Shown here piece after piece: positions 1 through 15,662 of a DNA stretch of 36,502 nt. The translations under genes and the position numbers were made by a program. Position 1 is the stretch's first letter. Every line of letters begins with the position of its first letter. The DNA comes from an uncultured Alphaproteobacteria bacterium (GTDB lineage: Bacteria > Pseudomonadota > Alphaproteobacteria > HIMB59 > GCA-002718135): positions 1-36,502 of the forward strand of contig CACOIH010000015.1 in NCBI GenBank assembly GCA_902627245.1, written 5' to 3'. Below the pieces are notes generated by a model that saw only the letters and a list, made by a program, of their open reading frames with translations, was not told the DNA's origin and made no database searches.

Positions 1-587
1 TTTGTTGTTTCTAAAAGTTGTTGGGATTCAATTTCATTAACAAGTAATATATCCACAAGATCAAAGAGTTCTCTATTAATTTTTTTAGCCGGTGCAGCGT
101 TTAAAAAAACTTTTATATTTCTTTTTTTTGCTTCTTTTGCAGCTACAATATTTATCTCTTCTTTAATTTCATTTTGAATCATTAAAAATGTGCAATCTTT
201 CCATAGATTATCATGGCTAAATATACTATCTGAAATCTCTAAGTTTGCTCCTGAAATTACCACTGCGCTATAATTGCCACTATTATTAGAAATGGCTACA
301 CTCATCCCAGACGTACCAATTGTTTTTGTTAGAAATTTATCTGATATATTATTTATATTTAATTGATTGATCAAAAAATTAGCAAAATCATCATTACCAA
401 TAGCGCTAACAAAATTTACATTAATATTCTCTTTAGATAATGCAACAGCTTGATTAGCTCCTTTGCCTCCTAACTTAGGATACCATTTTTTTCCAAGTAC
501 AGTTTCTCCAACTTCTGGTATTTTTTCTGATTCGATAAAAAGATCATAATGAAGACTTCCTAAAACTAGAATAGTTCTTGAGGTCAT
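1..587 (-). CDS. PfkB-family sugar kinase, ribokinase-like (3' end cut by window)
   Basis: This is the N-terminal 195 residues of a PfkB-family kinase, which would phosphorylate a sugar, typically a pentose, with ATP in the cytoplasm. Translation from the ATG at 587 gives the opening GSLHYDLF and the PfkB signature GGKGANQAVA (about residues 40-49), both typical of ribokinases. Ribokinases usually read GSxNxD at the opening, where Asn and Asp hold the sugar; here the Asn position is His13 while Asp15 is kept, so the substrate may not be ribose. The ATP-binding C-terminal part with the catalytic Asp lies outside the window. The start is 1 nt after the stop of the upstream isomerase gene, so the two are surely one leftward operon. 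Family assignment is firm; substrate is unknown. Confidence 0.85.
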   Translation of the reverse strand, partial: MTSRTILVLGSLHYDLFIESEKIPEVGETVLGKKWYPKLGGKGANQAVALSKENINVNFVSAIGNDDFANFLINQLNINNISDKFLTKTIGTSGMSVAISNNSGNYSAVVISGANLEISDSIFSHDNLWKDCTFLMIQNEIKEEINIVAAKEAKKRNIKVFLNAAPAKKINRELFDLVDILLVNEIESQQLLETT

Positions 588-588
588 C

Positions 589-1554
589 TTACGGGTACAA
601 AATACTGTTAAATATTTTATGAGAAGTTATTGAGTCTTGATTTTCTATTGCTGTTGTTAATTCACTATTTAACAAAAGTTTATCAACAACTTTAAATTGT
701 TTCTTAACAGTCTCAATGTTGAGTTCACATTCTTTTACTGGATCCATGTTAGTCGTATCTGGAAAAGTATCAAAATAAATTGAACCATTATAATTAGATT
801 TAGAGATATAATAAAGAAGTTCAATTGTAGCTAATTGATGGACTGAACCGACCATTAATCCATCATCCCTTTTTCCATAACCATCATTTAAATGTAATCC
901 TAAAATCTTAGAATGTTTGTCAATTAAAGCTGCAACTAAGGCTGGTTGTTCGTTTGAATACAATATGTGCGCAAAATCTATTGTTACTCCAATATTATTT
1001 AAATTTATTTCTTTAATTGCTAGGAGGGTTGTTCCTAAATTAGACAATAATGAATAGGCTCTTGGTTCATTAGGTTTATATTCAATACTGATTAAACAAT
1101 TTTTATCATATTCTGCAATTTCTTTTAGTGCATTAATTTCATCATCCCATATTTTTTTATAATCAACTTGAAAACCGTAATCAAATCCATCTTGACCAAG
1201 CCATATAGTTAATAAGTTAATATCAATTTCGTTAAGTTTATCTATAGCCCTTTTTGTTAGTTCAATTGCTTCTTGTCTAACTTTTCTATCAGGGTTAGTA
1301 AAAGCTCCAAGTTTAAAAGCAGGGTTAGTATAATATCTCATTGCTAAACCATTAATTTTCAACCCGCATTCATTAGTAAATTTAGAGATATCTTTCAAAT
1401 CGGGTTTACTATGATCTGGAAAATTCAAGTCGAGATGAGTAAGTCCATTTACAGTTGATGCTCTCTTAATTAAGTCTTGTATTGACGGTAATTCTAGGTT
1501 TTTCCAATTGGATTTGAAAGAATTCAGTCTTGTAGCGAACTTTTTTGTAAACAT
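589..1554 (-). CDS. Xylose-isomerase-like TIM-barrel sugar isomerase/epimerase
   Basis: A 321-residue protein of the xylose-isomerase-like TIM-barrel superfamily, which isomerises or epimerises free or phosphorylated sugars using a divalent metal. The likely metal and substrate residues are visible: E158 in IEYKPNEPR, D193 and H196 in TIDFAH, H221 and D224 in HLNDG, and D262 near the C-terminus. The pattern and the YKPNEPR strand resemble RhaI-type sugar isomerases, but I cannot assign the sugar. It is the first gene of a leftward pair with the PfkB kinase (1 nt apart), and it diverges from the sugar ABC transporter across a 102-bp gap. An isomerase next to kinases and a transporter suggests that it converts an imported aldose to a ketose. 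Confidence 0.75.
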   Translation of the reverse strand: MFTKKFATRLNSFKSNWKNLELPSIQDLIKRASTVNGLTHLDLNFPDHSKPDLKDISKFTNECGLKINGLAMRYYTNPAFKLGAFTNPDRKVRQEAIELTKRAIDKLNEIDINLLTIWLGQDGFDYGFQVDYKKIWDDEINALKEIAEYDKNCLISIEYKPNEPRAYSLLSNLGTTLLAIKEINLNNIGVTIDFAHILYSNEQPALVAALIDKHSKILGLHLNDGYGKRDDGLMVGSVHQLATIELLYYISKSNYNGSIYFDTFPDTTNMDPVKECELNIETVKKQFKVVDKLLLNSELTTAIENQDSITSHKIFNSILYP

Positions 1555-1656
1555 GATTTTATTAATATATTCTGATCTATTTTAGCGTTTTTCTTGTTGC
1601 CTTACTAATCTTATATTTATAAAACTTAAGTATTATAATTTTCATTGGAGGTAATA
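1555..1656. promoter_or_regulatory. Divergent intergenic region: isomerase/kinase operon versus transporter
   Basis: This 102-bp AT-rich gap separates two divergent units and must hold both promoters. On the + strand a TATATT hexamer at 1612-1617 is a possible -10 that would leave a leader of about 33 nt; no good -35 is seen. A perfect TATAAT at 1634-1639 lies too close to the ribosome-binding site to serve the transporter. ACTTAAGT at 1624-1631 is an 8-bp perfect palindrome, too short to call an operator. No convincing minus-strand promoter was found. Confidence 0.3.
1647..1651 (+). promoter_or_regulatory. Shine-Dalgarno GGAGG that sets the binding-protein start
   Basis: GGAGG sits 5 nt before the ATG at 1657. 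A longer reading starting at the TTG at 1645 would translate through this site, so the ATG at 1657 is the better start. Confidence 0.8.
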
Positions 1657-3324
1657 ATGAAAAAATCACTATATGAATATGCTGCTAAGCATGCCATTAA
1701 TAGACGTAGCTTTGTAAAAGGAGCTGCTTCTGCAGGTGCAATAGCTGCTATGAGTGGAGGTATATCTTCTATAGCAACAAATGCATTTGCTGATGGTCAT
1801 TCTGAGCTTAGAAAAGCTATTCTTCAAATTCCTGGTGTTGGTGCTGGTTCACCTGGGGATGCTGATTGGCAAAAGGTTGGTGAGATGTGCCTTGGACCAA
1901 CTAAAGAAAGAGTTAAAGAAGGTGAGTTCAAAGGAGTTGAATTAAACTTTTTAGGTTTGGACAGCTTAAACCTTCACAACATGCTTCACAGGGGTTTCTT
2001 AAAGCCTTGGGAAAAATATACAGGCGCAAAAATAAATTGGATCGACTTAGCTCAAGCTGATTACAATGCTAGACTACAACAATCAATTGCAACAGGTACT
2101 GTTGATTTTGATATTGTTCAATCTGGTGCTCCTTACGAGGGAGATCTTTGTGGTAAAAAGTTACTATCAGAGATGCCCGGTTGGGTTGCTGATCAAATCG
2201 ATTTAGGAGACTATGTTGGCTATTTGCAAGCTCCAGTTGGAACTTGGGAAGGTAAAACTTACCGAATTTCAATAGATGGTGATTGTCATAACTTCAATTA
2301 CAGAACTGACTATTTTGAAAATGAAGATTTAGCAAAAGCTTGGAAAGATGAAGGTCATGAAGGTAAATGGGAAGTTCCAACTACATGGCAAAAAGTAACT
2401 GAGGTTTCTAAATTCTTGAGAGGGAAAAAACATGCAGGTTTCCCTGCTTATGGATATCTAGATGTTCAAAAAGGTTGGGGTGGATTTGCTTTCTATTACT
2501 TAGGTAGTATTGCTACTGCTTACGGAAAACATCCTAGCAGTCCTGCTTTTCTATTTGAGCCAGATACGATGAAGCCTATGGTAAACAATCCAGCTTGGGT
2601 AAGAGCAATCCAGGATGTTCTTGATAGAAGAGATTGTCAGCCACCTGATCAAATAAATGCTGATCCAGGTGTTACTGGATTTAGTCAATTCTTAGCAGGC
2701 ACAGGATCTATGTGTGCTTGGTGGGGAGATGTTGGATCAAATGCCAATACTTCTGATGAGTCATTGATTCAAGGAAATGTAGGATTCGATATTTTACCTG
2801 GTTCAGATGATGTTTATAACTGGCAGACTGGCAAATGGGAAACTTTATCAAGTGGACCAAACTATGCGCCTAATATGGCTTACATAGGCTGGGGGCTTTA
2901 TTGTATGAAAACAGTAGATGATGATTCAGCTAAAAATAAAGCTGCTTGGTCTGCATGTTCTCATATTGGTGGTAAAGATCTATCTTTATGGATGTCAATG
3001 TATCCATCAGGGTTCCAGCCTTATAGAAACAGTCACTTCAATATAGATGAGTGGACTGGCGCTGGTTATACAGAAGCATTTGCTTCTGATTATCTTGCTT
3101 CTGAGGCTGATTCTTATAACCATCCAAATGCTGCTATTGAGCCACGTATTCCAGGTATTTTCCAATACTACAGTATTGCAGAAGATGAATTATCAAAAAT
3201 TTATGCTGGTCAATACGATGCTCAAACTGGCGCAGATAATATTGCTGCAGCTTGGGATAAAATTACAGACCAAATTGGTAGAGAAAACCAAATTAAGCTC
3301 TATAAAGCTTCATTAGGTATGTAA
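1657..3324 (+). CDS. Sugar ABC transporter substrate-binding protein (Tat-type signal)
   Basis: A 555-residue extracellular solute-binding protein of the carbohydrate ABC importer type (family 1, MalE-like fold). It would capture a sugar in the periplasm and deliver it to the two permeases encoded just downstream. The N-terminus carries a twin-arginine signal: NRRSFVKG at residues 15-22, a hydrophobic Ala/Gly stretch, then an AFA cleavage site near residue 45. Export already folded by the Tat system is therefore likely. The mature protein is rich in Trp and Tyr, as expected for sugar stacking. At 555 residues it is longer than MalE-type proteins (about 400), in line with a long-chain subgroup seen with CUT1 permeases. 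A hairpin follows directly, which would let this gene be expressed above the permeases. The ligand cannot be read from sequence. Confidence 0.88.
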   Translation: MKKSLYEYAAKHAINRRSFVKGAASAGAIAAMSGGISSIATNAFADGHSELRKAILQIPGVGAGSPGDADWQKVGEMCLGPTKERVKEGEFKGVELNFLGLDSLNLHNMLHRGFLKPWEKYTGAKINWIDLAQADYNARLQQSIATGTVDFDIVQSGAPYEGDLCGKKLLSEMPGWVADQIDLGDYVGYLQAPVGTWEGKTYRISIDGDCHNFNYRTDYFENEDLAKAWKDEGHEGKWEVPTTWQKVTEVSKFLRGKKHAGFPAYGYLDVQKGWGGFAFYYLGSIATAYGKHPSSPAFLFEPDTMKPMVNNPAWVRAIQDVLDRRDCQPPDQINADPGVTGFSQFLAGTGSMCAWWGDVGSNANTSDESLIQGNVGFDILPGSDDVYNWQTGKWETLSSGPNYAPNMAYIGWGLYCMKTVDDDSAKNKAAWSACSHIGGKDLSLWMSMYPSGFQPYRNSHFNIDEWTGAGYTEAFASDYLASEADSYNHPNAAIEPRIPGIFQYYSIAEDELSKIYAGQYDAQTGADNIAAAWDKITDQIGRENQIKLYKASLGM

Positions 3325-3336
3325 TTAATTTTTTAT

Positions 3337-3371
3337 ACTAGCGACTATTTATTAGTCGCTAGTTTTTCTTT
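3337..3371 (+). terminator. Rho-independent terminator-like hairpin between binding protein and permease
   Basis: A perfect 10-bp stem, ACTAGCGACT (3337-3346) pairing with AGTCGCTAGT (3354-3363), has a 7-nt loop and is followed by TTTTCTTTAT. It lies 13 nt after the binding-protein stop and 17 nt before the permease start region. In binding-protein operons such a hairpin usually stops part of the transcripts or protects the upstream mRNA, so that binding protein exceeds permease. Confidence 0.8.
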
Positions 3372-3387
3372 ATACTACTTCTAAGTT

Positions 3388-4506
3388 ATGAACGAAATTA
3401 ACCAAATGGAACGTGATCCATTATATGTTGTATCACCATCATATATCAGCCCAAAAACAAAAAGATTTGGAAAAGTTTTAGTATGGTCTGCATTTTTTTT
3501 AATGGCAACTATTGGAATAATTCAGATCTTATATAATCTAGAAAAAATAAGTTTTGGTTTTAAAAATTGGAGACCACTTCTTTATTCTTATATTTTATGG
3601 GCAATCGCAATAGGTTATTCAAGAGTATTGATCTACGGTGAAAAAGGAAAAAGAAATTTATTTATTTTTCCAGCAGTAATGTTCATAATTTCAATTGTAA
3701 TATTTCCAATGTTATTTGGTTTATATATTTCTTTTACTGATTGGAACCTAAGTTCTTTAGATGGAAGAAAGTTTAATGGTTTAGATAATTTCTATCAAAT
3801 GGTTTCTGATCCTTATTATTGGAATTCACTAAAGAATATGGTCTACTACATTCTCGCGGTATTAGTTGAGTTTGCTATAGCTTTTCTTTTAGCTTTATTG
3901 TTAAATTCTCAGATTAAAGGAAGGAAGTTTTTTAGGGTAGTTTTTTTAATACCCCTCATGCTCAGTCCTGTTGCTGTAAGTTGGATGGTTGGAAAGTCAA
4001 TGTTAGAACAAAGATTTGGTCCAGTAGCTAACTTTGCTAGATGGCTTGGATGGGAAACACCCACTTTTTTTAGCAGTCCTGAAATCGCAAGGTTAACAAT
4101 GATGTGTATGGATGCATGGACTTTTATTCCACTAATGATAATTATGCTTCTCGCTGGATTACAAGCATTGCCTAAAGAAGTTTTGGAAGCAGCTAAAGTT
4201 GATGGAGCAAATAAATGGACAATGTTTAAAAATATTATTTTCCCAATAATGCTTCCAGTATCCTTAACTACATTAGTAATAAGAATAATTTTTAAACTTA
4301 AGTTAGCGGATATAATTATTATTGTTACTGCTGGAGGTCCTGGTGGTGCTACGGATAGTGTAACTAGTTTTATAGTAAGAGAATACCGAGATAGATCTAA
4401 TGTAGGTTATGGTACATTACTTTCATTCGTCTATTTAATTTTAATTATTATTTTTATGACGGTTTTGATACGTTTTGTTAATCGTTGGTTGCAGAGGGCA
4501 GCATAA
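3388..4506 (+). CDS. Sugar ABC transporter permease 1 (MalF/UgpA-like)
   Basis: A 372-residue inner-membrane permease of the CUT1 carbohydrate ABC importer class. The cytoplasmic EAA loop that docks on the ATPase is clear at about residues 267-286 (EAAKVDGANKW, then FPIMLP). Before the usual six-helix core there is an N-terminal extension with two more hydrophobic segments (about residues 29-48 and 63-82), which explains the length above the usual 290-310. The core starts near residue 90 with LFIFPAVMF. Its stop overlaps the next start by 1 nt in a TAATG, so the two permeases are probably translated together. The start has no strong ribosome-binding site, in contrast to the binding protein. 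Confidence 0.88.
   Translation: MNEINQMERDPLYVVSPSYISPKTKRFGKVLVWSAFFLMATIGIIQILYNLEKISFGFKNWRPLLYSYILWAIAIGYSRVLIYGEKGKRNLFIFPAVMFIISIVIFPMLFGLYISFTDWNLSSLDGRKFNGLDNFYQMVSDPYYWNSLKNMVYYILAVLVEFAIAFLLALLLNSQIKGRKFFRVVFLIPLMLSPVAVSWMVGKSMLEQRFGPVANFARWLGWETPTFFSSPEIARLTMMCMDAWTFIPLMIIMLLAGLQALPKEVLEAAKVDGANKWTMFKNIIFPIMLPVSLTTLVIRIIFKLKLADIIIIVTAGGPGGATDSVTSFIVREYRDRSNVGYGTLLSFVYLILIIIFMTVLIRFVNRWLQRAA
4493..4498 (+). promoter_or_regulatory. Shine-Dalgarno AGAGGG for permease 2
   Basis: AGAGGG ends 7 nt before the ATG at 4506. It supports that ATG over an in-frame TTG at 4485, which would overlap the upstream gene by 22 nt. Confidence 0.6.
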
Positions 4507-5381
4507 TGCAAAATAATCTAACAGAAAAAATTTTTATATATAGTGTTCTTTTAATTTGGACATTTATATGTCTATTTCCAATTTATTGGACTGCTACGAC
4601 CTCATTTAAAACTGCTGCAAGCGTTACTCAAGGTTTATTAATACCTTGGCTAGATTTTGAGCCAGCTTGGAAAGGTTGGAAAAATCTTGGACTTTCTCCA
4701 GATACAATATTTACTGAATCTAATCCAAGAGAAGAATTCTTAGCTCGTTTTTTTAATACTGCTCTGATATCTTCATGTGCTTCTGGATTAGCGGTGATAA
4801 TGGGATCTTTTGCAGCATATGGACTAAGCAGATTCAATTATAAATTTGGCTTTATGCGAAATCCAGACATATCATTTTTCTTTTTATCACAATTAATTTT
4901 ACCACCTGTTGTTCTCGCTTTACCTGTATTAGTTCTATACCGAGAACTTGATTTACTGGATACACATATTGGAATGATTTTAATATATACATTGACTGTT
5001 CTGCCAATTGTAATTTGGATAATGAGAGATCAATTTAATGCAGTACCAATAGAACTCGAAGAAGCTGCCTTAGTTGATGGCGCTACAGTTTGGGGTAGTT
5101 TTTTTAAAATTGTATTACCAATTGTTTTACCCGGTATAGCAAGTGCATTTATTTTATGTTTAATATTATGCTGGAATGAATATTTTTTAGCAGCACTAAT
5201 AACAAGCACAGATGCTAAAACAATGCCTGTAATGGTTGCTTCTCAAATTTCTTCCCAAAGTATCAAATGGTGGAATATGGCTGCAATATCTCTTGCTCTA
5301 TGTTTTCCTTTGATTGTAGCTGCAATTTTTTTAGAAAGATATATCGTGAAAGGAATGGCTGCAGGGGCTATTAAAGGTTAG
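4506..5381 (+). CDS. Sugar ABC transporter permease 2 (MalG/UgpE-like)
   Basis: A 291-residue inner-membrane permease, partner of permease 1 in the CUT1 importer. It has an N-terminal membrane helix (about residues 8-30) and a TTSFK motif typical of MalG-type subunits. The EAA loop is at about residues 185-204 (LEEAALVDGATVW, then KIVLPIVLP). The last helix is followed by a short Gly/Ala tail. The chosen ATG at 4506 overlaps the stop of permease 1 by one base and has its own AGAGGG site. No ABC ATPase gene follows; instead the next gene is on the opposite strand and the two stop codons overlap by 4 bp. The complex must use an ATPase encoded elsewhere. Confidence 0.88.
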   Translation: MQNNLTEKIFIYSVLLIWTFICLFPIYWTATTSFKTAASVTQGLLIPWLDFEPAWKGWKNLGLSPDTIFTESNPREEFLARFFNTALISSCASGLAVIMGSFAAYGLSRFNYKFGFMRNPDISFFFLSQLILPPVVLALPVLVLYRELDLLDTHIGMILIYTLTVLPIVIWIMRDQFNAVPIELEEAALVDGATVWGSFFKIVLPIVLPGIASAFILCLILCWNEYFLAALITSTDAKTMPVMVASQISSQSIKWWNMAAISLALCFPLIVAAIFLERYIVKGMAAGAIKG

Positions 5382-6880
5382 TTATCTATTTTTTTCATTA
5401 AATCTTTTGTATTTTCATAAAGATCTCTGAACAACTCATAACCTTTACTGTAAACATCTTTATTTTTTGTATCTGCAATAATTTCATATTCTAGCTCATT
5501 CCATTTATTTATATCCTCTTTTTTTAATTCCCCGATAGTACATGCAGAAAGAAAAGCATCTCCATAAGAAGCTCCAATAGTTTTTTTTCTTAGTATTTGA
5601 TTTAATCCACTAACATCAGATGTTGTTTGCGACCAAATTGAGTTTTTTGTTCCCCCACCTACGCTATATATTTTTTCAGGTGTAGCATTTAATTCTTTAA
5701 AAACTTCAACAACATGGTTAGTTCCATAAGAAATTCCCTCAAAAATAGACCTGTACATGTCAGATCTTTGATGTGTTAAATCTAATCCAAAAAAAGTACC
5801 TTTTGCACTTGTGTCGTGGATAGGTGTTCTTTCGCCTGAAAAATACGGAAGAAATATTATACCTTTTGATCCAGGTGGAGAATTCTCAGCTTCCTTTGCA
5901 AGTTTTATAAATACGTCATCACTAGTTATTTCTTTTGCAAAATTATTCTTGAACCAGTGAGTTAATGTTCCACTTGTTGCGAGCCCACCCATAGAAGAAT
6001 GTTCGCCTTCAAAAAGCCAAGGCGAATACCATAACCTTTTATCTGATAAAATTTTATCTGTAACTAATATATAAAACATTGTCGATCCATACATCATCAT
6101 CATATCTTTTGGACCAATAACACCTACGCTAATTGCTTCAGCTGCTGCATCAATAGTTCCTGATGTTACAATAGTGCCTTCAGCTAAACCTGTTTCATCC
6201 GATGCTGATTTTGTAATTTTACCAACTATTTCGTTTGTCCAAACTAAATTTGGTAACTTTTCTAACTCTATAATTCCATCATTAAGTTCATTACTCCAGT
6301 TTTGTTTATTTATATCGTAAAGTGGGCTCAAAAAAGCCGCAGAAAAATGATCTATTGTATAATTCCCGGTTAATTTAAAATTAATAAAACCAGTTCCATT
6401 AACTATCTTTTCAGTTTTTGCATATATTTCTGGCCTATTATTCTTTAGCCATAATATTTTAGGACCAACTTGCTGAGAAGTAAGAACATTTCCATTAAAT
6501 TGCATTATTTTTTCTTCACCAATAGAGGAATTTAAATACTCAATTTCTTTATGTGCTCGTGTATCTACACCGTATAAAACACCGTTCATTAAAGGATTTC
6601 CTTCATTATCTAAAGGGAGCATACAAGGACCGATCGTACTGGCAGATACTGCTGAAATACTTTTTGGATTACATTTAGATTCATTGATTAGCTTTTTTGA
6701 AACATATTTAAAATCACCCCACCAATCCTCATTAGGCCTATGTTCTGCCCAACCACTTTGGGGTACAATCATGTCATGTTTTCTAGAAGCTTGATGAATA
6801 ATATCACCTGAAAGGTTAACCAATACACCTTTTGTCTCGTATGTACCTATATCAATACCAATAAAGAGTTTTTCTGACAT
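5378..6880 (-). CDS. FGGY-family carbohydrate kinase (xylulokinase-like)
   Basis: A 500-residue FGGY kinase, the length usual for xylulokinase, which transfers phosphate from ATP to a ketopentose, polyol or related sugar. Visible elements are the N-terminal phosphate-binding GIDIGTYETKG (residues 8-18, with D10 and T13), the catalytic Asp in SGTIDAAAEA (D244), FLPYFSGERTP (343-352), the ATP-binding GGGTKNSIW (408-416) and GASYGDAFL near 436-444. It is the last gene of the leftward island operon, 3 nt after the M42 gene. Its stop overlaps the stop of the convergent permease gene. With the split transketolase in the same operon it would feed a phosphorylated ketose into C2-unit transfer. D-Xylulose, D-ribulose or D-apulose are all possible substrates; sequence alone does not choose. 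Confidence 0.87.
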   Translation of the reverse strand: MSEKLFIGIDIGTYETKGVLVNLSGDIIHQASRKHDMIVPQSGWAEHRPNEDWWGDFKYVSKKLINESKCNPKSISAVSASTIGPCMLPLDNEGNPLMNGVLYGVDTRAHKEIEYLNSSIGEEKIMQFNGNVLTSQQVGPKILWLKNNRPEIYAKTEKIVNGTGFINFKLTGNYTIDHFSAAFLSPLYDINKQNWSNELNDGIIELEKLPNLVWTNEIVGKITKSASDETGLAEGTIVTSGTIDAAAEAISVGVIGPKDMMMMYGSTMFYILVTDKILSDKRLWYSPWLFEGEHSSMGGLATSGTLTHWFKNNFAKEITSDDVFIKLAKEAENSPPGSKGIIFLPYFSGERTPIHDTSAKGTFFGLDLTHQRSDMYRSIFEGISYGTNHVVEVFKELNATPEKIYSVGGGTKNSIWSQTTSDVSGLNQILRKKTIGASYGDAFLSACTIGELKKEDINKWNELEYEIIADTKNKDVYSKGYELFRDLYENTKDLMKKIDN

Positions 6881-6883
6881 TTA

Positions 6884-7987
6884 TTATCTTATTAGTTTTA
6901 ACTTATTATCAATTTTACCTATAGCACCTAAGATAAGATTTTTTAAATTAATAAGATCATCTAAATTGCAAACTTCTCTTGAAGAATGTGAATAACGCAT
7001 AGGAAAGCCTACATCTATAGTCGCAATACCGTTGTTAGTAAACTGAACATAGGATGCATCTGTTAAAATTCCTGAAGCTACACTTCGTTGTAAGTTAATT
7101 TTTTTTGATTTAGCGGCTTTTTCAAAAATTTCTACTATCGATGGATGAGGTATAACTCCGTTTAATGTCCCTCTTCCATGAAAAGAGAATAAACTAATAC
7201 ATGGTCCTCCACCAAGTATTACATCACTTGAATTATTCATATCTGGGGTGTCTGATGTTAATGTTAAATCAACCTGAATAGCAATATCTGGTTTTAATGA
7301 ATTAATTACAGGTAAAATCCCTCTTAAATTAAACTCTTCTTGGACAGAAAAAACGACATGAACAGTAGGTCTTTTTTTAATTTTTTTTAATGAACTAGCA
7401 ACATCTAAAATAACTGCACAACCTGCTCTATCATCAATAGAAGAGCCACATACGTTATTATTAGAAAGGGCTTTATAAAATGGAGCATAAGTAACTGGAC
7501 TTCCAATATTGATACCACTTTTCAAAACTTCACTTTTATTTTTAAAACCTGCATCGATGAAAATATTTTTTATTGCAGTCACGGTATATTTTTCATCTTG
7601 AAGAGTTGCATGATGAGACTTATTTCCAATGATACCTTTAATTAATTCATTTTTGTTATTAACGATTACAATATCTTGAGAAGCAAGAGCTTTTTCAGGT
7701 ATACCTCCTAACCTTTCAACACGCATAAAACCGTTATCTTCAATTTTTTTTACGATAAATCCAAGTTGATCCATATGAGCGAAAAGAATAACTGAAGGCA
7801 GATTGTCATCTCCTTTTAGAGTACAAGTTAAATTACCTAAAATATCAGTATTTGATTTAAGTGATTTAGTTTTTAATTTTTTTATTAAGTATGATCTAAC
7901 GTTATTTTCATATCCTGATAAACCAGAAATCAAAACTAATTCCTCTAATGTAGTATTGATAGAGTCAATTTCTTTTTTATTTGGCAT
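6884..7987 (-). CDS. M42-family metallopeptidase homologue (SgcX/FrvX type)
   Basis: A 367-residue protein of the M42 dinuclear-metal aminopeptidase family, which also holds proteins mislabelled as endoglucanases. All expected ligands are present: H71 and D73 in AHMDQLGF, D185 in SIDDRAG, the catalytic pair E217/E218 in VQEEFNLRG, D240, and H334 in RYSHSSREV. The enzyme should therefore be active. There is no signal peptide, so it works in the cytoplasm. It overlaps the upstream BtpA-like gene by 11 bp, so the two are translationally coupled. In E. coli the sgc sugar operon also pairs an M42 protein (SgcX) with a BtpA-family protein (SgcQ), and frvX sits in another sugar operon. The role of M42 enzymes in such operons is not settled; peptide or acyl removal from a sugar conjugate is possible. 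Confidence 0.88.
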   Translation of the reverse strand: MPNKKEIDSINTTLEELVLISGLSGYENNVRSYLIKKLKTKSLKSNTDILGNLTCTLKGDDNLPSVILFAHMDQLGFIVKKIEDNGFMRVERLGGIPEKALASQDIVIVNNKNELIKGIIGNKSHHATLQDEKYTVTAIKNIFIDAGFKNKSEVLKSGINIGSPVTYAPFYKALSNNNVCGSSIDDRAGCAVILDVASSLKKIKKRPTVHVVFSVQEEFNLRGILPVINSLKPDIAIQVDLTLTSDTPDMNNSSDVILGGGPCISLFSFHGRGTLNGVIPHPSIVEIFEKAAKSKKINLQRSVASGILTDASYVQFTNNGIATIDVGFPMRYSHSSREVCNLDDLINLKNLILGAIGKIDNKLKLIR

Positions 7988-8795
7988 TTTTTCTAAGAGA
8001 TTTTACTTTTGTCATAAATTTTTTTGCCCTATTAAAATCTACATTTTTCCAGGTATCACCATTTATTTTTAATGAGGAACCTATGATTACACCATCTGTT
8101 ACTCTAAGAATTTCTTCAACATTTTCTAAATTTACTCCAGTATTTGCTAGTACTGGAGTTTTTGGAATTATTTTACTAACTTCTTTAATTTCTTCTAGTT
8201 TCGCTGATTGGCCCGTAATTTGACCAGATACTAATACAGCATCGGGTATTGAAGAAAATACTGTGCTCTCAGCTCTTTCTGATATTGTCCTTCTATCCAT
8301 TGAGTAAGCAAATTCAGCTGAAATATTATAATACATTTGAATATCTTTTCTACCAAGAGAGTTTCTATATCGCATTGCTTCTCCAGCATTTGGACTCCAA
8401 ATACCCATGTCTGAGGCATAAGTTCCAGTAAATATTTCACGAACAAATTGAGCGTTTGTCGAAACTGCAAGAGCGATTGTGCTCATTGGATCCCACAACA
8501 CATTTACACCAAATGGAACACCAATTTTTTCTGAGAGTTTGCCAATCATATAGGACATAGTTGATAAAGTTGCGCTATTAACTTTTAATTCGTATGGACG
8601 ATCATTTTCGTTTCCAAACATGACTGCATCCACTCCAGCTTTTTGTAAATTCATTAAATCTTTTTCAATAGATTGGTAAATAAAATCTAATCCTTTTTTT
8701 TCATCGTATAATGGAGAACCTGGAAGTGCAGGAAAATGGACCATTGCAATAATGGGTTTCTTTGTTTTAAATAATTTATAAAAATTTTTCTTCAT
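7977..8795 (-). CDS. BtpA/SgcQ-family TIM-barrel protein
   Basis: A 272-residue member of the BtpA family (named after a photosystem I biogenesis factor; E. coli SgcQ is annotated as a putative nucleosidase). Family hallmarks seen are AMVHFPALPGSP (about residues 17-28), GVDAVMFGNENDRPY (54-68), FGVNVLWDP (95-103), the FVREIFTGTYASDMGIW strand, VLVSGQITG and the phosphate-loop-like DGVIIGSSLK near the C-terminus. The last motif suggests binding of a phosphorylated ligand, as in other TIM barrels. It starts 3 nt after the transketolase C-subunit stop and overlaps the M42 gene. Context points to a sugar or nucleoside catabolic step rather than photosynthesis. Family firm, reaction unknown. Confidence 0.85.
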   Translation of the reverse strand: MKKNFYKLFKTKKPIIAMVHFPALPGSPLYDEKKGLDFIYQSIEKDLMNLQKAGVDAVMFGNENDRPYELKVNSATLSTMSYMIGKLSEKIGVPFGVNVLWDPMSTIALAVSTNAQFVREIFTGTYASDMGIWSPNAGEAMRYRNSLGRKDIQMYYNISAEFAYSMDRRTISERAESTVFSSIPDAVLVSGQITGQSAKLEEIKEVSKIIPKTPVLANTGVNLENVEEILRVTDGVIIGSSLKINGDTWKNVDFNRAKKFMTKVKSLRKNAK

Positions 8796-8798
8796 AAC

Positions 8799-9803
8799 TT
8801 AAAGAGCTTCAGCTTTAGAGAGAGAATGAACATCTTCAATGCGTACTTTCCCTAAGTCTTGTTCTTCAATATTTAATTTTTGTCCTATAAATTTTTCTAT
8901 TGCATTAATCAATGCATATGCATCAAAACCATAGTATTTTGTTAGGTATTGCTTAGATCCTCCGTGAGCAAATGTATCTTTAAGGCCTAGTTTTATTAAT
9001 TTTTTTGATAAACCATGCTTTGATATTATTTCTGAAATTGTTGTTCCAAGGCCACCATTTACTAAATGGTTTTCCATTGTAATTACTCCAAGTTTAATAT
9101 TTGAAATTAAATCTAAAATTTTATCTTCATTGAAAGGTTTAAAAGTATGAATATGTAGATGTAAAATAGAAATACCCTGACTTATTAAAGCTGCTCTTGC
9201 TCGTAGCGCTTCTTCTGTACAGATACCTGATGTCATTAGTAAGATATCGGATCCAGAATTTAAAATTCGTATGTCACCTATTTTCAACGGACTATCAAAT
9301 AATCTTGGCACGGCTCCTCTCAGTATTCTACAATAAACAGGTCCATCAACATTATCTGCTTGCTCACATATGCTTTCAACCTCAGCTGCATCACCTGTTT
9401 CAATAACTGTCATGTTTGGTATTGTCCTCATAACTGCTATATCCTCAATCGCCTGATGGGTCATACCTGCTGGTGTTGTAATGCCTGGTAAAAACCCCAT
9501 TATACGAACTCTTCTCCTAGGATAGGCAATTGAAGCTAATAGCTGATCATAAGGTCTTCTATAAGCGAAAACTCCAAATGTATGTATGAATGGAGTAAAA
9601 CCACTCATAGCTAAACCACCAGCAAAACTCATCATATTTTGTTCTGCCATTCCCATAGAAACAAATTGATTTGGATACTCATCTCGAAAGATATCCACTT
9701 CACAAGAAGAAGTAAGGTCTCCGGATAAACATAAGATATTTTTATTTTGAGATGCATACTTTTTAAAGGATGTTCCGTAGGGTTTATTAACTATTTCAGT
9801 CAT
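8799..9803 (-). CDS. Transketolase C-terminal subunit
   Basis: A 334-residue protein equal to the pyrimidine-binding and C-terminal domains of transketolase. With the N-subunit encoded 2 nt upstream it forms a complete thiamine-diphosphate enzyme that moves a two-carbon unit from a ketose phosphate to an aldose phosphate. The catalytic Glu that activates the cofactor is E54 in GMAEQNM. YRRPYDQ (81-87) and THQAIEDIA (115-123) match the phosphate and substrate side of the family. A transketolase C-terminal domain follows from about residue 190. Split transketolases are common in bacterial sugar-utilisation clusters and are usually separate from the housekeeping enzyme, so a dedicated substrate is likely here. 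Confidence 0.88.
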   Translation of the reverse strand: MTEIVNKPYGTSFKKYASQNKNILCLSGDLTSSCEVDIFRDEYPNQFVSMGMAEQNMMSFAGGLAMSGFTPFIHTFGVFAYRRPYDQLLASIAYPRRRVRIMGFLPGITTPAGMTHQAIEDIAVMRTIPNMTVIETGDAAEVESICEQADNVDGPVYCRILRGAVPRLFDSPLKIGDIRILNSGSDILLMTSGICTEEALRARAALISQGISILHLHIHTFKPFNEDKILDLISNIKLGVITMENHLVNGGLGTTISEIISKHGLSKKLIKLGLKDTFAHGGSKQYLTKYYGFDAYALINAIEKFIGQKLNIEEQDLGKVRIEDVHSLSKAEAL

Positions 9804-9805
9804 AC

Positions 9806-10726
9806 TTAATAAATAATTGGATCTATTCCTAATTCTTTAGAAATTTCTAGATTCATTTTATTTCTTTCATCCTCAGATTTGAATCTTACGTAATGAAGTC
9901 TAGGAAATCTGGTTTTTAAAAAATTCATCCCTTTATATGGTGAAGTTCTTGCAAGTATTATTAAAGGCCTACCATCATGTTTTTCATTTTTTGCCTGCCT
10001 CATTGCATTAATATCATGACCATCAATTTCAATACACTTTGCACCAAATGAATTAATTTTTTTATTTATATCGCCAATATCTAAAACATCAGACATAGCA
10101 CCATCAACTTGCTGTTCATTTACATCTATAATTGCCCATAAATTATCTAATTTATAAAATACACTTACTTGAATGGCCTCCCAAATTTGTCCTTCCTGTA
10201 ATTCACCATCTGACATAAAGACACAAGTCTGACCTTTTTCATTATTTAGCTTTCTACCATATGCAATTCCAGCAGCTGTAGATAAACCGATTCCCAATGT
10301 GCCATTATGCATTTCCATACCTGGAGAATGTTCTGCACCAATAATTTCTACTGATGATCCATCTTTATTAAACATTGATAAACCTTCTTCGGACATACGG
10401 CCAACTTCTATTAAAGTTGCGTAAGCTACTAATGCATAATGTGCTGGTGCAAAAATTAATCGATCATAATCTTTGTTATTAGGTCCATTATAACCAGCTC
10501 CTGTTTTGTAATTTTTATTCGATGCACTTGGAACACCTTTAAATTCTTCTGGTATACTTGGTGCAATTGAGTCACCTAGATGTAAAGCCTCATTATATAA
10601 CCAAGCTAACTGTTCTGCAGATGAACATGCCTGACTGAGATAAGCACCGTTATTTTTAATACAATGTTCAAATACTCTTCGTCTTATACCTAAAGCAATT
10701 TTTTCAGAACTTAATGTATTTTTCAC
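9806..10726 (-). CDS. Transketolase N-terminal subunit (divergent)
   Basis: A 306-residue protein equal to the thiamine-pyrophosphate-binding domain of transketolase; the partner is the next gene. The cofactor motif is present as SDGELQEGQ (172-180) followed by N203 in DVNEQQ, and GTLGIGLSTAAGIA (142-155) is typical. Two features are unusual. The SKGH segment of most N-subunits reads APAH (residues 93-96), and a roughly 30-residue Gly/Pro/Asn-rich stretch (about 52-86) precedes it. Both lie near the active-site entrance in transketolases, which hints at a non-standard sugar phosphate. The gene starts 7 nt after the mutarotase stop. Function as a transketolase subunit is well supported; substrate is open. 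Confidence 0.86.
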   Translation of the reverse strand: MKNTLSSEKIALGIRRRVFEHCIKNNGAYLSQACSSAEQLAWLYNEALHLGDSIAPSIPEEFKGVPSASNKNYKTGAGYNGPNNKDYDRLIFAPAHYALVAYATLIEVGRMSEEGLSMFNKDGSSVEIIGAEHSPGMEMHNGTLGIGLSTAAGIAYGRKLNNEKGQTCVFMSDGELQEGQIWEAIQVSVFYKLDNLWAIIDVNEQQVDGAMSDVLDIGDINKKINSFGAKCIEIDGHDINAMRQAKNEKHDGRPLIILARTSPYKGMNFLKTRFPRLHYVRFKSEDERNKMNLEISKELGIDPIIY

Positions 10727-10733
10727 TTAATAA

Positions 10734-11186
10734 CTAAATTATCCAAACAGATCCATCTGGTTTTAAAACACCTTTAGTAAACATAAAACAACCATATGGT
10801 CTTGTATCACTAGTAGTGATTACTGCCATTGCTTTTTTTGCTTCAATATAAAATTTTTGACGTTCTACAGATCCAACTTTCCAATTATCTCCAGAAACTT
10901 TTTTTACAGTATTGATAAGATCTTGATGCACTTCATTTATTTCGTCGGGCTTTCCATCAATTTCCATTCTTTCCACTGGATGAGGAATAAAGCTATCTAA
11001 AGGAAAATGACTTAGTAAAGCTTCAGCAGCTTGAGCTATATTTAAACCATCCATTCTGTAAAGTTTATTGGCATGAGAATAGGATGGAAAATTGGCATCA
11101 CTTAAAACAAATTTATCCCCATGTCCCATAGATCTAATAAGCTGTAAAATTTCAGGGCTTATAAGAGGGTTTACATTAATCAACAT
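10734..11186 (-). CDS. RbsD/FucU-family sugar mutarotase
   Basis: A 150-residue protein of the RbsD/FucU family, which speeds the interconversion of sugar anomers (and pyranose/furanose forms for RbsD), giving kinases and isomerases the form they need. It matches the FucU branch: PLISPEILQLI at the N-terminus, then MGHGDKFVLSDANFP (20-34) with the catalytic H22 and D30, and TSDTRPYGCFMFTKGVL near the C-terminus. The length is that of FucU (about 140-150). A very good ribosome-binding site (AAGGAG, 7 nt spacing) and a possible internal promoter precede it. It sits at the head of the part of the operon carrying transketolase and FGGY kinase. The sugar could be fucose, ribose or another aldose. 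Confidence 0.85.
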   Translation of the reverse strand: MLINVNPLISPEILQLIRSMGHGDKFVLSDANFPSYSHANKLYRMDGLNIAQAAEALLSHFPLDSFIPHPVERMEIDGKPDEINEVHQDLINTVKKVSGDNWKVGSVERQKFYIEAKKAMAVITTSDTRPYGCFMFTKGVLKPDGSVWII

Positions 11187-11193
11187 AATTCAA

Positions 11194-11199
11194 CTCCTT
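11194..11199 (-). promoter_or_regulatory. Strong Shine-Dalgarno AAGGAG for the mutarotase gene
   Basis: On the minus strand AAGGAG lies 7 nt before the ATG at 11186. Most starts in this window have weak sites, so this gene may be translated at a higher level. Confidence 0.75.
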
Positions 11200-11210
11200 T
11201 TTGAAGAAAA

Positions 11211-11219
11211 ATTATAACA
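11211..11219 (-). promoter_or_regulatory. Candidate extended -10 promoter inside the sugar operon
   Basis: The minus strand reads TGTTATAAT, a full match to the extended -10 consensus TGnTATAAT, directly after the aldehyde dehydrogenase stop codon. Transcription would start near 11204, leaving about 18 nt before the mutarotase start, just enough for the AAGGAG site. No -35 hexamer is evident, which an extended -10 does not require. AT-rich DNA makes chance matches common. Confidence 0.4.
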
Positions 11220-11221
11220 CA

Positions 11222-13582
11222 TTACTCGCCGTAAGGTATCCAAATATTTTTTATTTGTGTACTTTCATGAAGAAATTCATTTAAAAAGCTCTCTTCATTA
11301 TTTAACCAATTTATATTTTTTGATTTTGGACACCAATATCTTTTTAAGTTTGAGACAGAATTATTTATAACTTGTTTTCTCTCTTTATCATCTCCACTAA
11401 ATAACCATACACCATCAATATTTTCATGTTCGGATAATACTTTATTTAAGCTATTTTGCTTTGTTGTTAAAAAATTAATATAACCAGCAGGAATATCAGA
11501 TGTATCTAATAATCTGTACATCTCTGAAGCAATCAATGATGTTTTTTCTCCTGGCAAAATAATATTTGCATTACCAGCTGCAAAATTTGAAGCTAATACT
11601 GTTACTAAACTTAAAAGAGGAAATTGATCATCTAATATTGAAGCCATTACACCAATTGGCTCTTTCACTGCAAGAGTTAATCCCCTTATAGGAGGATTAT
11701 GAATATTTCCTTCAAATTTATCTGCCATAGAAGCATAATAGAAAATTCGCTCTTTTGAATTATTAAATTCTTTTAAGGCTTCCTGTTTTTCCAATCCTAT
11801 TAACGAAGATAATAATTCAATAAAATTATTTTCATTATCCTGAAGGTTTTCTGCTAAATAAAATAGTATTTGAGATCTGTTAAAATTACTTAATTGTTTA
11901 TTTTTTACTTTAGATGCAATTTCAACACTGTCTCTTACATCTTTTCTGTTAGCATTTGGAATATCACAAATAAATTTATTTTTATGATTATAGATTGAAA
12001 AGGAATAACCACTGTCTGGTCTTTTTTGTTTTCCACCGATATACAATTTAGGTGTCTTATCAATTAAACTATTCTTGATGTTATTTTTATTAGAGATTTT
12101 TCTTTTGTTTTTTAAAAGAGGAAGTTCTAAGTTAGTATAGGCTCTGATACCTTCAGAACCACCTTCTCTACCAAAACCGCTTTCTTTATATCCACCAAAA
12201 CCACATGAAGCATCAAAAAGATTGGTTGAATTAATCCAAATAACACCGGCCTTAATTTTTGGCGCAATATCTAAAGCTAGATTAATATTTTCAGACCAAA
12301 TACTTGCAGCAAGCCCATATGGTGTATTATTTGCAATTGCTACAGCTTCACTAGGTGTTCTAAATGAAAGACTTGTTAATACTGGACCAAAAACTTCAAC
12401 TTGTGCAATAAAAGATGAAGGTGTTACATTTGTAAATAAAGAAGGTGGATAAAATAATCCATCTGTTGGACAAGACCATGATGGTTGCCATAGTTTATTG
12501 CCCTCCTTTTCAGCTTTTTTTACTAATTGATTAATTTGTTGAAGTTGTATTGGTGCAACAATAGCTCCAATATCAATGGATTTATCAAGAGGATTACCGA
12601 CTCTAAGTTTTTCCATTCTTTTTTTAAGTTTTTTAATAAAAGATTTTTCAATACTTTCTTGAATTAATAATCTTGATCCAGCGCAACAAACTTGTCCCTG
12701 ATTAAACCAGATAGCATCAACAATACCCTCAACTGCACTATCTAAATCTGCATCTTCAAAAACAATAAAAGGTGATTTACCTCCTAACTCCATTGTTAAT
12801 TTTCTATCTGGGTCTGGATTATTTTGAATTATTTTTTTTCCGACTTCTGTTGATCCAGTAAAAGCTATTTTTTTTATGTCCTTATGATTTGTAATATGTT
12901 GACCTGTAGACCCATCTCCAGTGACTATATTTACAACACCTTCAGGAATATTTGCTTTTTGACATAGTTCTGCAAAAAATAAGGCAGTAAGAGATGTATA
13001 TTCTGCTGGTTTTAAAACAACGGTGTTTCCAGTTGCTAAAGCGGGTGCAACCTTCCATGCTAACATGAGTAAGGGAAAATTCCATGGAATTATTTGCCCA
13101 ACAACACCTATAGGTTTATTTTTGAAACTTGTATCTTTTGCAGACCATCCAGCATGATAATAAAAATGTCTTGCTACAAGAGGAATGTCTATATCTCTTG
13201 TCTCTCTTATTGGTTTTCCATTATCAATAGTTTCTAGAACAGACAAAAATCTAGAATTTTTTTGTATCATTCTTGCTAATGCATATAAATATTTAGAACG
13301 TTCAAATGGTGATAATTTTGACCATTTAGGAAATGCCTTTTTTGCGGCTTTTACTGCTAAATCAACATCTTTTTTTGATGAAACTGATAATTTACCAATA
13401 TTTTTTTTATTACTTGGATTTATAATATTTAGTTTTTTGCTTCCTGAAGACTTAACAAATTTATTATTAATAAATATTTTATTTGGACTACTTAATTTAC
13501 TTATCCATAAATAAACCTCAGCACTATCTTCAGGTGCAGGACCGTAAGAAATATTCTTAAAATTTTTAATAATTTTATCCAT
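11222..13582 (-). CDS. Aldehyde dehydrogenase fused to a second, catalytically dead ALDH-like domain
   Basis: A 786-residue protein. Residues 1 to about 490 are a complete NAD(P)-dependent aldehyde dehydrogenase: IIPWNFP with N168, KPAE with K191, the nucleotide-loop GSTEVG (243-248), the general base E265 in MELGGKS, the catalytic C299 in GQVCCAGSR and E396 in EVFGP. Residues about 510-786 repeat the N-terminal half of the fold (EPIGVMASI, DDQFPLL, a weak KPAE-like LPGEK) but have no catalytic Cys or Glu and stop early, so this part is probably structural. Such long two-domain ALDHs are known next to deoC in alphaproteobacteria. The gene follows deoC by 1 nt. DeoC releases acetaldehyde from deoxyribose 5-phosphate, so oxidation of that or a related aldehyde to an acid is the likely role. 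The fusion appears genuine; no frameshift is seen. Confidence 0.88.
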   Translation of the reverse strand: MDKIIKNFKNISYGPAPEDSAEVYLWISKLSSPNKIFINNKFVKSSGSKKLNIINPSNKKNIGKLSVSSKKDVDLAVKAAKKAFPKWSKLSPFERSKYLYALARMIQKNSRFLSVLETIDNGKPIRETRDIDIPLVARHFYYHAGWSAKDTSFKNKPIGVVGQIIPWNFPLLMLAWKVAPALATGNTVVLKPAEYTSLTALFFAELCQKANIPEGVVNIVTGDGSTGQHITNHKDIKKIAFTGSTEVGKKIIQNNPDPDRKLTMELGGKSPFIVFEDADLDSAVEGIVDAIWFNQGQVCCAGSRLLIQESIEKSFIKKLKKRMEKLRVGNPLDKSIDIGAIVAPIQLQQINQLVKKAEKEGNKLWQPSWSCPTDGLFYPPSLFTNVTPSSFIAQVEVFGPVLTSLSFRTPSEAVAIANNTPYGLAASIWSENINLALDIAPKIKAGVIWINSTNLFDASCGFGGYKESGFGREGGSEGIRAYTNLELPLLKNKRKISNKNNIKNSLIDKTPKLYIGGKQKRPDSGYSFSIYNHKNKFICDIPNANRKDVRDSVEIASKVKNKQLSNFNRSQILFYLAENLQDNENNFIELLSSLIGLEKQEALKEFNNSKERIFYYASMADKFEGNIHNPPIRGLTLAVKEPIGVMASILDDQFPLLSLVTVLASNFAAGNANIILPGEKTSLIASEMYRLLDTSDIPAGYINFLTTKQNSLNKVLSEHENIDGVWLFSGDDKERKQVINNSVSNLKRYWCPKSKNINWLNNEESFLNEFLHESTQIKNIWIPYGE

Positions 13583-13583
13583 A

Positions 13584-14528
13584 TTAACCTAATGCTAGCT
13601 TTTCTTTATTTGCATATCGTCCACTTGTGTAATGATATAATTGTCTTTCAATATCAATTAATAAACTAGAAGCACCAATTCGCAATAATTTAGGGTTTAT
13701 CCATTCAAAACCAAGCTCTTCAGCAACTAAAATTAAAAATTCTAAAACAGATTTTGATGTTGATATTCCACCAGCAGGTTTAAAGCCAATTTTTTTTCCT
13801 GTTTTATTGTAAAAATCTCTAATCATTCGAAGCATCACAAGACTGTTGTTTAAGTTAGCATTAACATTTTCTTTGCCTGTTGATGTTTTGATAAAATCAG
13901 CACCTGCCATCATACAAACAAGAGAGGCTTTTGCAACATTACGTAGCGTTTCTAAATCTCCAACACCTAAGATTGCCTTAATTTTAGTATTACCTGCTGT
14001 TTTTTTAAATTCTTTAACTTCATCGTATAATTTATTCCAATTATTCTGAAGAACATAGCCGCGATTAATTACTATATCTATTTCATTTGCTCCATCTCTT
14101 ATAGAGTCACTGATTTCTTGTTTTCTAGTGCCAAAAGAAGATAATCCAGCTGGAAAACCAGTTGAAACTGCCGCTATAGGTAATTGATTATGGATAAGAT
14201 TTATACAATCTTTGATAAGATGATGATATACACAAACGGCTCCAACCCTAATCTCATTTTTACTTAATCCAAGTTCATTCAAAATATCCTTATCAATTGG
14301 ATTAAGTGCTTTATTACATAATCTTTCTACTTTTCCAAAAGTATCATCACCACTTAAAGTGGTTAAGTCTATAAGTGTTATTGCTTTTAACAACCAGGCA
14401 ACTTGATACTCTTTTTTTACCGTTCTTCTTTTCGTTAGGGTTGCTGTACGACGTTCAACAGCACTGAGATTAATTTTAATATTATTTACCCAACTTGTAT
14501 CAAGCTCATAGTATATTTTACTAGTCAT
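13584..14528 (-). CDS. deoC: Deoxyribose-phosphate aldolase
   Basis: A 314-residue DERA aldolase that cleaves 2-deoxy-D-ribose 5-phosphate to acetaldehyde and glyceraldehyde 3-phosphate through a Schiff base. The Schiff-base lysine is K214 in FIKTSTGKE, the second active-site lysine is K250 in GFKPAGGIS, and the active-site Asp is D151 in EIDIVINRG. The opening IDLTTLSGDDT (residues 53-63) and the length place it with the longer, eukaryote-like DERA branch rather than the 250-residue E. coli type. It starts 5 nt after gpsA and ends 1 nt before the aldehyde dehydrogenase. This pairing of aldolase and dehydrogenase is the best clue that a deoxy-sugar phosphate, or a compound giving one, is degraded here. 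Confidence 0.93.
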   Translation of the reverse strand: MTSKIYYELDTSWVNNIKINLSAVERRTATLTKRRTVKKEYQVAWLLKAITLIDLTTLSGDDTFGKVERLCNKALNPIDKDILNELGLSKNEIRVGAVCVYHHLIKDCINLIHNQLPIAAVSTGFPAGLSSFGTRKQEISDSIRDGANEIDIVINRGYVLQNNWNKLYDEVKEFKKTAGNTKIKAILGVGDLETLRNVAKASLVCMMAGADFIKTSTGKENVNANLNNSLVMLRMIRDFYNKTGKKIGFKPAGGISTSKSVLEFLILVAEELGFEWINPKLLRIGASSLLIDIERQLYHYTSGRYANKEKLALG

Positions 14529-15514: not shown

Positions 15515-15519
15515 AACGG

Positions 15520-15525
15520 ACCTCT
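15520..15525 (-). promoter_or_regulatory. Shine-Dalgarno AGAGGT that sets the gpsA start
   Basis: The minus strand reads AGAGGT with 5 nt before the ATG at 15514. It argues against the upstream in-frame start at 15550. Confidence 0.65.
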
Positions 15526-15662
15526 TATCTTCTGTGACAAATGAAGTCAATTTATGGTTTTTCTTGGTTTTTTAGTCATTTTTTTTGAAAAAACTGCATG
15601 ATTGATTTTTGTAACTAGTATAAGAGTGAAAATATTAAAAAGTATACTTTTTTGGAGGAAAT
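15526..15662. promoter_or_regulatory. Divergent gpsA/livK promoter region
   Basis: This gap must serve both gpsA (leftward) and livK (rightward). On the + strand TATAAG at 15619-15624 is a 5/6 match to the -10 consensus and would give a leader of about 30 nt ahead of the strong GGAGGA (15654-15659) of livK; its -35 is poor. On the minus strand TTGACT at 15545-15550 looks like a -35, but the matching -10 position would fall on the gpsA ribosome-binding site, so the gpsA promoter is unresolved. Confidence 0.35.

Follow-up and report, generated by a model that had tools for sequence, protein, structure and literature searches.

The left end of a contig (C15; CACOIH010000015.1) from an uncultured alphaproteobacterium of the HIMB59 lineage carries a sugar-utilization island; the whole contig of 36,502 nucleotides is called the window here. 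The source genome comprises 1.19 Mb and is estimated to be 62% complete. The island is probably a resident 2-deoxyribose-type operon (deoC-ALDH16-fucU-rbsK2; half A) whose fucU-rbsK2 end was replaced by a larger cassette that carries copies of these two genes itself. The importer, isomerase, rbsK1 kinase, FGGY kinase, M42 hydrolase and BtpA genes of this cassette (half B) would serve a separate sugar pathway conserved in Alphaproteobacteria. Gene content, allele pattern, kinship and co-occurrence were observed directly; from these we infer the direction of exchange and every reaction and substrate. From right to left, the minus strand carries gpsA, deoC, ALDH16, fucU, a split transketolase (N-terminal and then C-terminal subunit), BtpA, an M42 hydrolase and an FGGY kinase; further to the left are a solute-binding protein and two permeases on the plus strand, followed by an isomerase and a PfkB kinase cut at the contig end, both on the minus strand. 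The original prediction, made from the DNA letters alone, had described a two-branched sugar island that matches no single known pathway. The two branches were borne out as halves A and B, and neither the protein families nor the literature searched yielded a single pathway. All of the gene types that it listed are present by profile matches, but the M42 and BtpA genes, which separate the FGGY kinase gene from those of the transketolase, had been overlooked.

Distribution of the island and allele pattern

The gene arrangement is not due to chance, since the same island recurs in the 18 relatives mapped, six of the maps being cut by a contig end (L021, L023, L028, L031, L035 and L038). BtpA, the marker of half B, was found in 19 of 110 genomes of the family, in three of its six genera. 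ALDH16 was found in 90 of the 110, including all ten high-quality genomes. Eighteen of the 19 BtpA genomes were ALDH16-positive; in the remaining one, G107, a fragment of ALDH16 lies at the contig end. Among the 90 ALDH16-positive genomes, which are incomplete, 72 show no BtpA, and 21 of these (20 plus L181) were mapped at the corresponding empty locus. The genes deoC-ALDH16-fucU-rbsK2 stand in one run in 18 of the 21; L266 and L269 have no recognisable fucU, and L267 has only an FGGY gene between fucU and rbsK2. This four-gene run is thus a near-core locus of the family. In relatives with the island, the second PfkB kinase gene, rbsK2, follows rbsK1 beyond the left end of the window and closes the island (four loci read), and the contig of the window stops before it. 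As the empty loci run deoC-ALDH16-fucU-rbsK2, half B occupies the interval from fucU to rbsK2. A partial cassette was seen in one genome, G062 (L062, 9500-12500; L267, 7500-10500), where FGGY is the only gene between fucU and rbsK2, and M42, BtpA, the isomerase and the importer are missing.

The identities of the encoded proteins separate the two ends of the resident locus. For fucU, filled and empty loci of the same genus share 57% identity (51-62, 252 pairs), whereas filled loci of different genera share 79% (75-83, 56 pairs). The pattern is reversed for deoC, with 84% (75-97, 234 pairs) between filled and empty loci of the same genus versus 77% (74-81, 39 pairs) between filled loci across genera, and the corresponding values for ALDH16 are 77% versus 74%. 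For rbsK2, they are 63% (56-66) versus 69% (66-72), a comparison from which the rows of L021 and L032 were dropped (rbsK1 picked or sequence short) and for which four loci had no rbsK2. Because filled loci of different genera agree better in fucU and rbsK2 than filled and empty loci of one genus do, the cassette appears to have been exchanged. By these values, fucU and, less strongly, rbsK2 move together with the cassette, and deoC and ALDH16 follow the species. The right edge of the cassette lies approximately at the ALDH16/fucU junction (11187..11221), where the identity pattern shifts, and the left edge lies beyond the window. The same pattern would indicate which allele is the newcomer, and with it the direction of exchange.

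Several observations weigh against this reading. The rbsK2 signal is modest (69% versus 63%), fucU is short, and the family genomes are partial, that of the window at 62% included. As the filled loci span three genera, an older, complete island that was lost several times, together with allele replacement, is a possible alternative to the exchange. Moreover, RbsK2 may act on another sugar, since loci outside the family carry it without deoC nearby, and halves A and B may belong to one pathway, as a locus of another family (L191, described below) suggests.

The deoxyribose-type branch

DeoC (13584..14528, minus strand; TIGR00126, 134 bits, cut-off 117.3) and the two-domain ALDH16-type aldehyde dehydrogenase (11222..13582, minus) are the resident part of half A. 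They are flanked by gpsA (14534..15550, minus; NF000942, 349 bits, above the cut-off), which adjoins deoC in most relatives mapped. The best PDB match of the ALDH16 protein was 6mvr, at 765 bits over residues 7-785, a full-length match of both domains; we take 6mvr and its relatives to be bacterial ALDH16 of Loktanella origin. An inactive second domain is a typical feature of ALDH16 enzymes. A difference noted from this bacterial ALDH16 is that the gene in the window adjoins deoC. The same adjacency was found in all 14 loci retrieved from outside the family, and it identifies DeoC as a consistent partner for ALDH16; of 289 genomes of the class, 28 outside the genus were ALDH16-positive, and the 14 loci come from these. 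A compact candidate deoxyribose operon is L192 (G160, 2900-12300), in which rbsK2-fucU-ALDH16-deoC is accompanied by a distinct CUT1 importer of its own (33% identity in the solute-binding protein).

The RbsD/FucU mutarotase with the cassette allele (10734..11186, minus; PF05025) is FucU-like, scoring 86 bits with the FucU model and 33 with that of RbsD, both below the cut-offs. The alignment of RbsK2 to E. coli ribokinase scored 201 bits, and in all 50 distinct loci compared RbsK2 has Val where E. coli RbsK has Asn14. At this position, rbsK1 encodes His in 47 of 49 matches, the other two being the rbsK2 paralog. Asn14 presumably touches the 2-hydroxyl of the sugar and differs in deoxyribokinase, and the Val of RbsK2 suggests specificity for deoxyribose, which would also be the simplest substrate for the kinase, DeoC and the aldehyde dehydrogenase jointly. 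In the proposed route, FucU would interconvert the sugar forms, RbsK2 would phosphorylate 2-deoxy-D-ribose, DeoC would split deoxyribose 5-phosphate into glyceraldehyde 3-phosphate and acetaldehyde, and ALDH16 would oxidise the acetaldehyde to acetate. The deoxyribose route of Salmonella, in which a DeoC step follows the first reaction, has a PfkB kinase in common with the island, where the kinase is found beside DeoC. The island differs from it in the added FucU-type mutarotase and ALDH16 and in a kinase specificity that is predicted only. According to the available part of PMC13432705, 2-deoxyribose use in Salmonella begins with DeoK.

Enzymes and importer of half B

The FGGY kinase (5378..6880, minus; PF00370/PF02782) scored 322 bits with the XylB model (cut-off 380) and is 26% identical to XylB, 22% to AplK and 41% to kinases of Deinococcus and Vibrio nigripulchritudo. 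The tree separates the AplK/GlpK side at 100/100 and places the kinase of the island on the side of XylB, in a distinct clade of alphaproteobacterial sequences (100/100). XylB, LyxK and TktA are long branches (program warning), and the groupings of the trees were used, not the root. An invariant GPC occupies the position of the MHG of E. coli XylB in all 80 loci compared (the best 80 of 580; see below). Since GPC replaces this MHG, the MH of which we take to have a role in the xylulokinase pocket, such a pocket is unlikely in the kinase of the island. The TIM-barrel sugar isomerase (589..1554, minus; PF01261) has 3ktc as its best PDB match (171 bits; the next, 71), which is annotated there as 'xylose isomerase' and nothing further, and it is 56-58% identical to rhizobial and Roseibium isomerases encoded near ribokinase and ABC transporter genes. 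The PfkB kinase rbsK1 (3..587, minus; PF00294, 74 bits) is cut at the contig end, and this fragment scored 157 bits with the ribokinase model (cut-off 299.65).

The M42 hydrolase (6884..7987, minus; PF05343, 265 bits) is of the SgcX type, with 37% identity to SgcX versus 28% to FrvX. Its residues H71, D185, E217, E218, D240 and H334, presumably metal ligands, are invariant among four sequences. The BtpA/SgcQ protein (7977..8795, minus; TIGR00259, 264.4 bits, cut-off 153.4), a predicted phosphosugar-binding barrel, is 44% identical to SgcQ. Its model (mean confidence, pLDDT, 92.0) is a phosphate-binding TIM barrel matching the 2-keto-3-deoxy-6-phosphogalactonate aldolase 2v81 (Z 18.9; 2.5 Å over 200 residues) and 9lj9, a protein of the 3-hexulose-6-phosphate synthase (HPS)/6-phospho-3-hexuloisomerase type (Z 18.8; 3.0 Å over 203 residues). 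Many phosphate-binding barrels tie with BtpA, and aldolase and isomerase are therefore indistinguishable by fold; no sequence relative of BtpA was found in the PDB (hmmsearch, E 0.01). An enzymatic role for BtpA/SgcQ or SgcX was not found in the literature searched.

The CUT1-type importer genes lie together on the plus strand (1645-5381) and encode a solute-binding protein (1645..3324; PF01547/PF13416), permease 1 (3388..4506; UgpA/MalF-type matches) and permease 2 (4506..5381; GlcU/MalG-type matches). The likely start of the solute-binding protein is the ATG at 1657 (555 amino acids), with NRRSFVKG near the N-terminus, which we take to be a twin-arginine motif; the searches were run with 1660-3324, that is, without the first Met. 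This protein is 68-69% identical to the best-listed rhizobial plasmid proteins and has no sequence relative in the PDB (phmmer, E 0.01). In its modelled fold (pLDDT 77), it resembles numerous CUT1-type proteins that bind different ligands, and the ligand of the importer was therefore not assignable from the fold. No ABC ATPase gene occurs within the island. A UgpC-like ATPase (51% identity) is encoded elsewhere in the genome, on contig C4 (G000:C4:28103-29161), and may serve the importer as a shared subunit.

Taken in order, the importer would take up a sugar with an ATPase encoded elsewhere, the M42 protein would hydrolyse the imported sugar or a derivative, and the isomerase with rbsK1, as well as the FGGY kinase, would yield ketose phosphates. 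BtpA, a barrel resembling 2-keto-3-deoxy-6-phosphogluconate aldolase and HPS, may then isomerise or cleave a phosphosugar. In some versions of the island, the split transketolase would add a route from ketose phosphate into the pentose phosphate pathway.

Half B outside the family

For the outside sample, named genomes were scanned with the FGGY alignment, and the best 80 of 580 confirmed places were taken; eight are family members and 72 are others. The 72 loci, of which 42 are at least 21 kb, contain FGGY by choice, and the other genes were counted with identity thresholds set in this analysis. M42 was counted in 68 loci, BtpA in 62, permease 2 in 62, permease 1 in 59 and the solute-binding protein in 52, followed by an aldo/keto reductase (46), fucU (43), the isomerase (36), UgpC (35), rbsK2 (34), rbsK1 (32) and a gene resembling HxlB (11). 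Within the stretches examined, transketolase, deoC and ALDH16 were found in none. Half B is therefore a conserved locus, mainly of Rhizobiales and Rhodobacterales, and isolates of Roseobacter, Ruegeria, Hoeflea and Mesorhizobium are among those that carry it. The aldo/keto reductase that adjoins 46 of these loci is absent from the island. Furthermore, rhizobial plasmids that lack this FGGY kinase can carry the isomerase and importer genes, L049 having a distant FGGY (24%). The literature searched, mostly without subscription papers, held no description of the half B locus or of its function.

Two further assignments were considered and rejected. The HxlB-like 6-phospho-3-hexuloisomerase is not a general third partner after FGGY, as strict counts gave 11 of 72 and 10 of 70 loci; a figure of 64 loci from loose clustering was an artefact, because clusters had merged. 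L-fucose oxidation was suggested by lactonase-like genes in 11 loci and by genes in six that we label, as an assumption, fuconate-dehydratase-like, and both are too rare to define a pathway.

The original prediction had also proposed a combined pathway, in which a single imported compound gives a 2-deoxypentose for half A and a ketose for half B. The clearest point in its favour is L191 (G380, another family), which reads UgpC-fucU-rbsK2-deoC-ALDH16-iso-rbsK1-BtpA-M42-FGGY plus the importer; both halves are in one locus in another gene order, apparently a second joining. In addition, fucU and rbsK2 accompany half B in 43 and 34 of the 72 outside loci, and importer genes lie near FGGY in most of them (permease 2 in 62). 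Against it, the halves are mostly apart by the refutation test that the original prediction had set, as BtpA was not seen in 72 of the 90 ALDH16-positive family genomes, which are incomplete, and deoC and ALDH16 were not seen in the outside loci within the stretches examined; half A can also carry its own importer (L192). On balance, the combined pathway is unlikely. It would also be possible that independent routes for pentoses (ribose, deoxyribose and a ketopentose) share one importer and are grouped only by genome streamlining. Modules do stand apart elsewhere, such as iso-CUT2-RpiR-ribokinase in Roseibium and importer-RbsD/FucU-ribokinase runs in rhizobia, but most of the 72 alphaproteobacterial loci keep BtpA, M42, FGGY and the importer as one group, which makes such a loose salvage island quite unlikely.

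The sgcXBCQAER operon of E. coli K-12 likewise combines an M42 protein (SgcX) and a BtpA protein (SgcQ) in a sugar operon. It has a phosphotransferase system (PTS) in place of the ABC importer and FGGY kinase of the island and an SgcE that resembles ribulose-phosphate 3-epimerase (RPE), and, unlike the island, it has no iso, rbsK or fucU; neither a PTS transporter nor an RPE-like epimerase was found among the open reading frames of the island that were scanned. The sgc operon has no assigned function in PMC5797941, nor, as of 2026, in PMC13343008. The latter describes induction on some nitrogen-containing carbon sources, and E. coli sgc mutants grew there without a defect on standard substrates as well as on 190 carbon sources of the Biolog panel. 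It is tempting, though doubtful, to regard half B as a new sugar pathway that shares the BtpA-M42 core with the sgc operon, in which M42 would process sugars as a hydrolase instead of acting as a peptidase, BtpA would be an aldolase or isomerase of phosphosugars, and which would have joined the deoxyribose branch twice, in the family of the window and in G380, as one compound yields both deoxypentose and ketose. Wide sugar use has been described for AEGEAN-169 (PMC10308909), in a paper whose main text mentions none of fucose, xylose, ribose and deoxyribose by name.

The split transketolase and the apiose route

The split transketolase (C-terminal subunit, 8799..9803, PF02779/PF02780; N-terminal subunit, 9806..10726, PF00456; both minus) is an optional part of the island. 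It is present in 13 of the 19 islands including that of the window, the copy of L023 being truncated, and is absent from those of six of the 18 relatives (L025, L026 and L035-L038). This transketolase type was found in 14 of 110 family genomes (E 1e-100). By sequence, it belongs to the group linked to RuBisCO-like proteins (L177-L180, L204, L208 and L046 of Vibrio nigripulchritudo) and not to AptAB. In these linked clusters, a RuBisCO-like protein is adjacent, whereas the island has none; no such gene was found in the window, nor PF00016 in the 62% complete genome. G046 and G069 have no transketolase in the island, but each has a 70% identical copy at another site next to a gene for a RuBisCO-like protein, and the surrounding cluster includes DhaK/DhaL-, RpiB- and Gfo/Idh-type genes; the subunits of the window are 70% (C-terminal) and 72% (N-terminal) identical to those of G069. 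The clusters in question (L204, 9009-19900, G069; L208, 104-12973, G046) hold the RuBisCO-like protein, the split transketolase, a bifunctional aldolase/dehydrogenase, a PfkB kinase and an epimerase, besides the Gfo/Idh-, RpiB- and DhaK/DhaL-type genes, and we take them to resemble an apionate or erythrulose type.

One branch of the island had been predicted to be the non-oxidative D-apiose route, with an isomerase forming apulose, an FGGY apulose kinase and a split apulose-4-phosphate transketolase. The three enzyme types are the same, and among PDB entries the isomerase matches 3ktc best. Compared with aplK, aptA and aptB of E. coli SE15, the reference sequences used here, the enzymes of the island fall in separate clades at 22-29% identity: the FGGY kinase is 22% identical to AplK and lies outside the AplK/GlpK group (100/100), and the transketolase is 28-29% identical to AptB/AptA and lies outside their group, AptB forming a separate group (99/100) with a subunit encoded on contig C14 of the same genome. 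Moreover, the transketolase is missing from the six related islands named above, and a Sodalis cluster (L203) with AplK/AptAB relatives has a gene annotated to the L-fucose/L-arabinose isomerase family instead of an island-type TIM barrel. The identities, the trees and the separate set on C14, which is closer to AptAB (45% and 34%), rule against the apiose route for the island and leave it highly improbable. The C14 locus (L205, 6841-11229) encodes a TIM isomerase, a GlpK/AplK-like FGGY kinase (27% to AplK, 36% to a GlpK fragment), the AptA/AptB-like subunits and CUT2-like ABC proteins. If the organism uses apiose, this locus would be a better candidate than the window. In the available part of PMC13001218, the three genes are named in E. 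coli SE15, and growth on apiose is reported for other cluster-bearing strains and not for SE15.

In conclusion, the alphaproteobacterial locus, which Roseobacter, Ruegeria and Hoeflea isolates carry, joins proteins of the BtpA/SgcQ and SgcX types with an importer, an isomerase and an FGGY kinase, and ligand-binding assays and gene deletions therefore offer a way to its substrate. For the family of the window, the findings point to a group with small genomes in which a cassette of ten to twelve genes has apparently been exchanged for two.

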